From positions 197,781 to 261,780 of the forward strand of contig NZ_FNUR01000004.1 in assembly GCF_900108105.1 (NCBI RefSeq): DNA of 64,000 nt. Reading direction: 5' to 3'. Numbering within the stretch: position 1 is the stretch's first letter; the number at the start of each line of letters is the position of its first letter. The notes below the pieces were generated by a model. That model ran no database searches. It was not told the origin of the DNA and was given only the letters and a program-made list of their open reading frames with translations. Positions 18,021-46,149 of the stretch are shown piece after piece. The position numbers and the translations under genes were made by a program. Origin of the DNA: Butyrivibrio sp. Su6. GTDB taxonomy: Bacteria > Bacillota > Clostridia > Lachnospirales > Lachnospiraceae.

Positions 18021-18103
18021 GGGAAGATAGGGTGACGCTTCTAATGACTTATTAAACATAAGGCACTTGAACTGTTACCTTACTTTGATAAGTTTAGATT
18101 GCG

Positions 18104-18309
18104 GCTGCGTACGCCACCATTGACTGAGCCTGAGGAAAACGCATTGGTCTGTGAGCCGACGGTGAGGATGATGGGAACAGTAGTTAGATTCATGCACCGT
18201 CGAATTCAGCATTTTAGCGTTTTCCTCAGAACCCGTCAATGGCAAGCACCTTCGGTGTGGCTTGGTTAAGGTGCCTCAGGATCCAATTCCTAGAACAGTA
18301 AGGGTGGCT
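18104..18309 (+). repeat. Left arm of the long inverted repeat, with nested foldback
   Basis: This arm matches the reverse complement of 19231-19437 at roughly nine of ten positions by eye. It contains three nested perfect stems: CCATTGAC (18117-18124) with 18235-18242, CTGAGGAAAACG (18130-18141) with 18218-18229, and CGACGGTG (18157-18164) with 18195-18202. A small CACC-TTC-GGTG hairpin follows. Mismatches between the arms largely spare these stems, suggesting that the fold is kept. Confidence 0.85.
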
Positions 18310-19105
18310 GCATTCAAGGATATGTGTGACTATATGCCCGCGGCTCCCAATGAAGAGAGCGAAGATTCCATTTTGGAAATATAGCCTGATTTTTGAACTT
18401 ACAACACCAGTCGACAAGGATTTTGACTTGTGGTTTTGGGCATATACAGCTTTTTTTAAGTTACCACACCATTATAAAGATGATTATATGTTTCAGTTCA
18501 CTGATCCAATGGATGTGGTAATCCATTTTTTCTCGTATATGCCCATTTTCACTTCCTGAAAAATATACCGATGGATGTGTTAACTTAAAAATATAGCTAT
18601 ATACCCATTTCACTGTGATGAGATAGGATAAATACTACAATTCTCCCGCTTTTATCCTATGATTCATTAAATCTCTCATTTGCCAAGTATAAATCGCCAT
18701 TCAATCTTTCCCACAAAAAGGCCGTCCTCATCAAAATTGCCATTTGTTTCCATTCGTTTTCAATTCCTCCATATTCAATTCATTCCATAAGTCGTGAAGA
18801 ATATTGGTTTGGGCATATAGCGCTTTGGAGAGCTTCCAGCCACCTCTTATTTCTTATAATTTGTCCTTATAGCACTTTTTTGCGATGCCAGCCACCCTCA
18901 TTAAAGTTCAAATGGGCATATAGGCCGATTTCAAGCCTTTGGCCACCCGTTAGAAGGGTGGCTGTGGACGGATAATTACCGTATATGCCCAGTCGCCTGC
19001 GATAAAAGCCTTGGTGAGGGGTGGCTGCAAGCCTGAAATCAGGCTATATGCCCAAAACCGATTTTATTACGGGTGGCCGAGGTATTGAAAACGAGCTATA
19101 TGCCC
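18302..19105. repeat. Array of conserved-end units (GGGTGGC...TATATGCCC), mostly 35 bp
   Basis: Units share the ends GGGTGGC(T/C)G and TATATGCCC around a variable middle. Same-strand units: 18302-18339, 18511-18544 (weaker), 18573-18606 (weaker), 18956-18990, 19019-19053, 19071-19105. Opposite-strand units: 18438-18470 (weaker), 18811-18845, 18863-18897 (weaker), 18914-18948. The last six by position are exactly 35 bp. Several middles can form a hairpin of their own, for example GCCTG-AAAT-CAGGC in 19019-19053 and TGGA-GAGCT-TCCA in 18811-18845. The function is unknown. Confidence 0.8.
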
Positions 19106-19230
19106 AAAGACAATGCTTTCGGCTCTTTAAACTTACCTATAGAGTAGACACATACAAACTTCCTTTAGCCCCACTTTCGTATGCAGTATGCTGCATACGA
19201 AAACTGGCGCGCCAGCGTTTTCTTGAAAGT

Positions 19231-19437
19231 AGCCACCCCTACTGTTCTCGGAATTGGAACCAGAGGCCCTTATACCAAGCCACACCGAAGGTGCTTGCCA
19301 TTGACGGGTTCTGAGGAAAACGCTACAATGCTGGTTCCGACGGTGCATGAATCTATCTACTGTTCCCATCATCCTCACCGTCGGCTCGCAGACCAAGGCG
19401 TTTTCCTCAGGTTCAGTCAATGGTGGCGTACGGAGCC
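19231..19437 (-). repeat. Right arm of the long inverted repeat, with nested foldback
   Basis: Inverted copy of 18104-18309, with the same nested stems and the same small hairpin. Its inner end, like that of the left arm, runs into the GGGTGGCT sequence that begins the array units, so arm and array are related. Confidence 0.85.
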
Positions 19438-19481
19438 AAGCATTTACCAATTTCTTAAGCTTTTACATAGAATAACAGGGA

Positions 19482-19520
19482 CGGTTCTAATGACTTGCTT
19501 TTAATAAGTCATTAGAACCG
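19482..19520. repeat. REP-like hairpin with GGGACGGTTCT head
   Basis: CGGTTCTAATGACTT (19482-19496) pairs perfectly with 19506-19520. It begins with the GGGACGG head also found at 32154, 51177 and 61435 in this window. Such sequences resemble the REP-type repeats mobilised by IS200-like transposases in Firmicutes, though none is encoded here. Confidence 0.6.
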
Positions 19521-19560
19521 CCCCCGGTGTCTTCTAACTCACTTACGCATATACAAAGAA

Positions 19561-19602
19561 AGAGCATTTAGGCAAGAAAAAAATCCCTTGCTTAAATGCT
19601 CT
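19561..19602 (-). terminator. Intrinsic terminator of the zinc-ribbon gene
   Basis: A 16-bp stem with one mismatch (AGAGCATTTAGGCAAG with CTTGCTTAAATGCTCT), followed on the minus strand by a T-rich stretch. It lies just after the stop of the gene at 19614-20372. Confidence 0.75.
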
Positions 19603-19613
19603 CAAAAAATACA

Positions 19614-26072: not shown

Positions 26073-26182
26073 CTCAAACTACTCTTTCTTCTCTGATTTT
26101 TCAATCATATTCTTTCAATATTTTTCTCATACATCTCTTTAGGCAGCACTGCCTTATAAGTCAAAAGAACCGTCACTGTGTC

Positions 26183-32153: not shown

Positions 32154-32179
32154 CACAGGGACGGTTCTTTTGTCTTGTC
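32154..32179 (+). repeat. GGGACGGTTCTTTTGTC repeat
   Basis: A single copy of the GGGACGG-headed sequence just upstream of the PPK2 gene. Related heads occur at 19478, 51177 (opposite strand) and 61435 (opposite strand). It resembles remnants of REP-type elements seen in Firmicutes. Confidence 0.5.
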
Positions 32180-45867: not shown

Positions 45868-46149
45868 ATGGAGATTACAGAAAAACTAGACGCATTATTA
45901 GAAAAAGCCGGCAAAGACAGTATTCTCAAAGACAAACTTTTAGCTACAAGAAAGTCTCTCAACCCCATTGCCGACTTTTGCGATATTGCAAATGAATATG
46001 GTATTCAGATAAGCGTTATGGATATAGTAAATCAGGGAGAAGAATTCTACGCAGAAATTAAGCGCAGCACCAATGGCGGCGGTGAAAACTCTCCTGATCT
46101 TGATTTTCAGAATGATGAGTATTCTATTTTTATGATGAGATTACAGTGA
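45868..46149 (+). CDS. Nif11-like small protein
   Basis: A protein of 93 residues with a strong AGGAGG site. Residues 5-60 resemble the Nif11 domain (LEKAGKDSILKDKLLAT, then FCDIANEYGIQIS), a domain used as leader in many modified peptide precursors. A Gly-Gly-Gly at about residues 71-73 is followed by 20 residues (ENSPDLDFQNDEYSI...). The tail has only two serines and no cysteine, so it does not look like a lanthipeptide core. No modifying enzyme is seen nearby. It may be a stand-alone Nif11 protein. It overlaps the next, convergent gene by 9 bp. Confidence 0.6.
   Translation: MEITEKLDALLEKAGKDSILKDKLLATRKSLNPIADFCDIANEYGIQISVMDIVNQGEEFYAEIKRSTNGGGENSPDLDFQNDEYSIFMMRLQ

Follow-up and report, generated by a model that had tools for sequence, protein, structure and literature searches.

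Helically phased, predicted protein-binding sites and a hairpin module in a likely mobile, non-coding element of Butyrivibrio sp. Su6

Iteron and operator arrays consist of repeated binding sites placed at whole helical turns, and TnpB elements carry structured RNAs. The insertion sequence IS110 carries a structured bridge RNA (PMC11208160), the loops of which vary with the target. TIGR arrays are made of alternating 8–12-nt repeats and 9-nt spacers beside Nop-domain genes, and form stem-loop arrays in some clades (PMC12045711). Among the literature matches listed, as judged by titles and abstract openings, there was no RNA common to insertion-sequence families and no Butyrivibrio array of the kind described below.

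The locus lies in a 64,000-nucleotide stretch of Butyrivibrio sp. Su6 (the window), and is one copy of a dispersed element that extends from inverted end to inverted end at 18103..19437 (no strand assigned), as delimited by its arms and by homologous copies. Its arms, the left terminal inverted repeat at 18103..18318 (minus strand) and the right at 19222..19437 (plus strand), were identified by repeat analysis; they are 216 bp long and 91% complementary, and the longest ATG-initiated ORF between the element ends encodes 88 aa. The region gave 168 similarity matches within its own genome, and homologous copies are present at approximately 37 genome places, of which several adjoin contig ends and could represent halves of a single copy. 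The 56 listed end repeats start with CGCCACC or a near variant, with the sequence diverging outside. All 21 copies examined for their position are intergenic, with 10 in gaps between convergent genes, 11 where both neighboring genes run in the same direction and none between divergent genes, ORFs having been called by length only for this count and short end-overlapping ORFs set aside in four copies. Being short, non-coding, multi-copy and intergenic, with long terminal inverted repeats and a presence that differs between relatives, the element resembles a MITE, but its ends are a structured module and its interior is a phased array of sites. The inverted ends, their structured module and the multi-copy nature of the element go beyond what the initial annotation of this DNA had described.

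The interior of this copy is formed by ten units whose ends resemble GGGTGGC and TATATGCCC, comprising six of 35 bp, one of 38 bp and three decayed units of 32 bp, and this recount agrees with the approximately ten units with shared ends, six of them exactly 35 bp, that had been annotated initially. Three of the 35-bp units are on the minus strand (c, 18811..18845; b, 18863..18897; a, 18914..18948) and three on the plus strand (d, 18956..18990; e, 19019..19053; f, 19071..19105), with centre-to-centre steps from c to f of 52, 51, 42, 63 and 52 bp. Units a, d, e and f were located by pattern search, unit c by pattern search and class counts, and unit b through repeat family D1, the latter being decayed here and better kept in other copies. 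The 38-bp unit (18302..18339, plus strand) has a 9-20-9 geometry and overlaps the left terminal repeat at its inner edge. The 32-bp units are at 18438..18469 (minus strand, by pattern search), 18514..18545 (plus strand, by repeat analysis, with one end in family D4) and 18576..18607 (plus strand, within inverted repeat I5), the last of these being the most decayed. A mismatch-limited pattern search accounts for seven of the ten units, and the remaining three come from sequence and repeat analysis. A site of a second family, ATAGGATAA-N20-TTATCCTAT, is present at 18623..18660 (no strand) and was absent from the initial annotation.

The exact unit pattern has 47 matches in the 3.70-Mb, 23-contig genome, compared with none for the reversed control, and is held by 5 of the 79 genomes of the genus (own genome counted). 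The ends are therefore far above chance frequency, and no single known insertion sequence accounts for the units as its pieces, so that neither of the two outcomes named initially as refuting the observation applies; the ends of the element are related to a module, described below (H), that is found beside several insertion sequences. Across 15 distinct aligned cores, 14 from this genome and one from a sister species, identity to the consensus is 95.4% for unit ends, 91.2% for middles and 84.6% for linkers, and this order of conservation is supported at p values of 3e-4 and 4e-4. The middles, reported initially as variable, do vary between array positions, but less so between copies, as the 91.2% identity indicates; self-complementary middles were found for some units only, and such hairpins are not conserved. 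The constant, same-orientation repeats and variable spacers of CRISPR are not seen, as the units occur in both orientations, by pattern search on the minus and plus strands, and their middles are kept by position across copies; that the array is unlike CRISPR had been proposed from the sequence. TIGR arrays are similar in having short units with conserved and variable parts, but here the half-sites are approximately 20 bp apart and the units occur in both orientations and are helix-phased, and the unit geometry does not provide the alternating edge and loop repeats with 9-nt spacers of TIGR arrays.

Each end of the element contains a module of approximately 150 nt, H, which reads outward. The left copy is at 18111..18263 (minus strand; model R1, 170.2 bits) and the right copy, for which covariation was also used, at 19277..19429 (plus strand; model R1, 174.2 bits). 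A 5' leader precedes each of them; that of the right copy (CTACTGTTCTCGGAATTGGAACCAGAGGCC..., 19239..19276, plus strand) is by eye the counterpart of CTGTTCTTAGATTCTGAGCCTGAGG in insertion sequences, and that of the left copy (18264..18301, minus strand) is by eye its mirror. In the window and 37 fetched loci there are 52 full-length H modules, and the borders are similar in each setting, running from YTGTTCTTAG to GGGTGGCG or close variants (by eye). Among 33 sequence-aligned modules, picked for diversity from 92 distinct BLAST finds with partial ones dropped, changes on both sides were seen in 13 of 39 predicted pairs. The 56 modules found with the covariance model show such changes in 19 of the 24 predicted pairs (265 cells), where controls with shuffled columns have 0.2 pairs, although this set, having been picked with the model, leans towards it, whereas the set of 33 was not so picked. 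These 56 are sense-strand sequences, realigned by sequence after 29 of 85 rows were dropped as antisense matches to the same places. Minor G-U cells outnumber A-C cells by 60 to 12 on the sense strand, compared with 10 to 14 on the antisense strand. The covariation and this strand asymmetry point to a single-strand structure on the sense strand, most simply RNA, the alternative being single-stranded DNA; H is a conserved hairpin module and probably an RNA. At Rfam gathering scores there were no matches in the window or in 11 further loci, of which 10 have H, and matches were sub-threshold only. The covariance model places H in at least 23 of 397 genomes of the family, this one included, with at least one or two places in each of the others among the matches listed.

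Some further features of H were observed. Between ..CCGTCGGC and GCGTTT.. is a stretch of approximately 12 nt that is near-constant in length and variable in sequence, with few recurring alleles (by eye). Half modules at L049:2977-3136 and L065:2424-2549 look as if they had been deleted between two CTACTGTTC repeats (by eye), which sit in the leader and the apical loop of H (by eye). The H motif pattern also matches five IMG/VR viral contigs (L380-L384). The loops of H are nearly identical by eye across insertion sequences whose targets differ (L232, L233, L234 and L237 among them), and a reading of H as a guide RNA was dropped for this reason. H is therefore not like a target guide of the bridge-RNA type, the loops of which vary with target; this comparison of loops was made by eye and without statistics. 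It also differs from the bridge RNA in that the transposases next to it are of the DDE type and belong to three families.

In other genera, H starts just 3' of a transposase gene whose product, approximately 483 aa long, has a DDE domain close to that of IS6, the matches being 73–77 bits against an IS6 cut-off of 125, with zinc-ribbon matches that are weak and below their cut-offs. The insertion sequence is approximately 1.9 kb in length with GGTAGTGTCAA termini, and two copies show 8-bp target duplications (by eye). H is present in 22 of the 43 IS6-like transposase loci that were searched among 49 fetched; where the transposase gene is whole, 14 of 25 loci have H and 11, the one in this genome (L210) among them, lack it by the model, a point against the reading given below. 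A scan of named genomes for the H motif gave 115 occurrences in 112 stretches, and Butyrivibrio is among the labels of the named loci with a related module. The IS6-like transposase is upstream in 45 of 68 H places having at least 600 nt upstream (33 of 49 in an earlier count over 80 stretches), and in the other 23 no such transposase is upstream, some of these being visibly truncated insertion sequences. Two H loci have an ISL3 transposase, scoring 240 and 230 bits against a cut-off of 180, and H there lies between the transposase start and the element end; an IS30 transposase followed by H was found in the genomes G022 and G008 (92 bits, cut-off 80). In one locus of G022 (L107), tandem IS30-like copies have H directly after the transposase stop codon. 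Wherever its direction was examined, H points to the element end. The presence of H beside three transposase families suggests that it is a portable accessory and not part of one enzyme.

Many IS6-like insertion sequences thus share with the window element an outward H, just 3' of the transposase gene in their case, but their GGTAGTGTCAA termini are absent from the window element. Among 18 copies of the window type, IS6-like terminus motifs were near 0, ISL3-like motifs numbered 1 and IS30-like motifs 0. An autonomous partner with matching termini, of the kind that MITEs have, was not found among insertion sequences with these three motifs, nor is it provided by L210 (G000:C5:40250-41689), which is the sole copy of the IS6-like transposase found in this genome; L210 is open throughout and has no downstream H by the model. 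IS30 was considered as the source and rejected, with 14 other IS30-like loci of the genus having no such 3' hairpin (by eye), and no P0001-like IS30 transposase was found in this genome at E 1e-15. The layout of the insertion sequences, in which a segment GGGTGGC-N18 to N21-TATATCTGC lies 3' of H, is suggestive of an origin of the 35-bp unit from this segment.

Mobility was assessed by searching the flanks of 12 copies in three sister species. Six sites (L042, L043, L045, L046, L050 and L060) are without the element in G009, the L056 site is empty in G053, and G008 has the element at L045 and L046. The flanks of the window copy adjoin element sequence in both G008 and G009, and the L042 site in G008 holds a short flank-type piece without H. 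This presence and absence at matching sites of sister species supports movement, and the element is likely to be mobile and non-autonomous. Clean junctions or target duplications were not found in 13 occupied/empty pairs; the junction region was instead replaced, often being a terminator hairpin, and many flanks of element copies hold recurring hairpin modules. Next to both ends of the window copy are REP-like palindromes, GGGACGGTTCTAATGACTT, at 19478-19524 and 18031-18075, with weaker matches at 26158-26176 and 32158-32176. The sequence TTTGTATATGCGTAAGT is beside a terminator-like hairpin at 19541-19603, and modules similar to this sequence and hairpin flank many copies, some of them being found at empty sites.

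Other copies of the element carry other unit families, such as GTRGGATAA-N20-TTATCCYAC and CATGACCTA-N20-TAGGTCATG, and a further family, GCCTAA-N20-TTAGGC, was found in another Lachnospiraceae MAG. There is a common geometry to these families. Inverted repeats with a 20-nt gap and arms of at least 7 number 31 in 20 cores, compared with 1.15 in block-shuffled controls, and with arms of at least 8 the 20-nt gap accounts for 28 of 100 inverted repeats in cores (11.8 kb) and for 2 of 86 in flanks (58.6 kb), both of the latter sitting approximately 250–350 bp from a further H module. The distance from GGATAA to TTATCC is 20 bp in 85 of 115 pairs (mostly GTRGGATAA; 62 distinct), and that from GACCTA to TAGGTC is 20 bp in 25 of 27 pairs (25 distinct). 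GGGTGG and ATATGC are 21 bp apart in 33 of 40 pairs, and the spacing of TTACCC-N19-GGGTAA is kept in 8 of 9. In the window, the 9-20-9 layout of the other families is seen in the 38-bp unit only, and the 35-bp units are 3 bp shorter, with unlike half-sites (GGGTGGC and TATATGCCC) and no 20-bp gap, something that counts against their being protein sites. A central motif, GA(A/T)1-3TC, was considered as common to all unit families and rejected, most families being poor in it; it is enriched in the arrays of G007 (10 of 13) and weakly so in the 35-bp family (5 of 22), with no enrichment for TAGGATAA (2 of 35), CATGACCTA (1 of 6), TTACCC (0 of 5) or GCCTAA (0 of 2).

The distances between adjacent units fall at 41–42, 50.5–52, 62–64.5, 73–75, 83–84, 93–94 and 102–105 bp. 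Spacing by whole helical turns was seen in 178 of 182 distinct adjacent pairs from five families, with four exceptions at 66, 69, 71 and 96, and the vector length for the 182 pairs is 0.85 at 10.5 bp with a phase of 0.0 (also 0.85 at 10.75 bp, with a phase of -1.6). The copies are related, so the pair counts are not independent events; the 12 modal distances alone give R 0.83 and p about 3e-4. Within the window, the six 35-bp units do not share their phase with the 32-bp and 38-bp units or with the TAGGATAA site, which counts against this pattern. On balance, the phased units look more like the trace expected of proteins sitting on a single DNA face than like RNA hairpins, as the half-sites are at a fixed distance and the units are spaced at whole turns. 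The suggestion made initially that the units could be a set of protein-binding sites is thereby strengthened.

The arrays also appear to be exchanged as cassettes. At the L045 site there are six 35-bp units in this genome and four CATGACCTA sites in G008, whilst the L046 site has five TAGGATAA and three CATGACCTA sites in this genome and four 35-bp units and six TAGGATAA sites in G008. These differences at two orthologous sites favor the earlier idea that the units are cassettes of an element, and the unit families occur alone or in several combinations among 18 paired copies. By the model, arrays or single sites without H are present in G007, G008 and G038 (8 of 9 loci fetched), from which it follows that arrays and H are separable. 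In the loci L398 and L401, intergenic arrays of TTGCGGATAA-N20/21-TTATCCGCAA, mostly with a central TGAWTCA, have no H, and 126 bp of the window (46015-46140) are 80% identical to a stretch of L401, which belongs to the species G007. In a Lachnospiraceae MAG (L290:696-1742), noncoding repeats with a period of 84 bp that contain GCCTAA-N20-TTAGGC lie between two outward-reading H modules. A gene tied to the free-standing arrays was sought, but no family is common to the neighboring genes. Iteron and operator arrays, to which the phasing is comparable, differ from the present arrays in that here a likely mobile element carries several site families of one geometry as cassettes.

Three other explanations of the array were weighed. 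The array could act as RNA, either as one long nested hairpin formed by three minus-strand units followed by three plus-strand units or as unit stems with 20-nt loops, the middles then being loops and perhaps guides. The consensus fold of the 15 cores does have an energy of -89 compared with -27 when columns are shuffled, the long fold has 85 G-U and 14 A-C cells on the plus strand, and some middles are self-complementary. Set against this, the long fold has two pairs with changes on both sides, which is the same as in shuffles (1.9), and the array was accordingly rejected as a covarying RNA; single 35-bp units fold weakly and inconsistently. Hairpins in the middles, which the initial annotation had noted for some units, were likewise rejected as a conserved feature, given that 169 unit copies of six classes fold weakly and differently and covariation does not rise above the control. 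The evidence from the arms themselves is divided. In a loose collection of 100 TAGGATAA units, some plainly spurious, there are 37 symmetric arm changes compared with 21.3 in shuffles (none of 2000 shuffles reaches 37), and the CATGACCTA set tends in this direction too (8 compared with 4.5; 123 of 2000 shuffles), which would fit paired arms or the kinship of copies. The half-sites of exact-core TAGGATAA units, however, vary independently, with 38 of 61 mixed and 30.5 expected, and helical phasing has no reason in RNA. An RNA role for the array is therefore considered unlikely.

That the units are recombination sites, for instance of a serine recombinase with outer zinc-ribbon motifs, the arrays changing by site-specific recombination, was considered a slim prospect. 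Inverted arms approximately 20 bp apart would make a site of roughly 38 bp, presumably resembling the attachment sites of serine recombinases, and array cassettes do differ at the two orthologous sites, but ten neighboring proteins scanned at arrays outside the window included no recombinase family, several unlike arm sequences occur within one element, and phasing between sites would be unexpected. Equally improbable is that the units arose by tandem duplication within a miniature element and serve no purpose. The near-constant array periods and the decay of one of the six 35-bp units in the window copy are compatible with plain decayed repeats; the greater conservation of ends than of middles, and of middles than of linkers, is not, and neither are distances that jump by whole helical turns instead of following one repeated period, or unlike families with a common geometry.

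The units are instead fairly probably protein sites in an exchangeable cassette, inside a likely mobile element capped by copies of H, a prediction made from sequence comparison. Each unit would be the target of a protein dimer or tetramer, and contacts between neighboring complexes along one DNA face would give a cooperative array, which may gather or silence the element or bring its ends together. H would be transcribed outward and may influence how its carrier element transposes or is expressed. A broader proposal, that H is a portable, structured transposon RNA common to at least three unrelated DDE insertion-sequence families which also caps elements with exchangeable, helix-phased arrays as their sole cargo, these elements spreading binding platforms rather than genes, is put forward tentatively, and we regard it as somewhat doubtful. 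If true, the occurrence of H beside three unrelated transposase families would represent an accessory shared by transposons, one undescribed among the literature matches listed, as far as their titles and abstract openings indicate. Likewise, if helix-phased arrays are passed on as cassettes, they would supply DNA-binding platforms in mobile form and offer a direct route to the protein that reads them.
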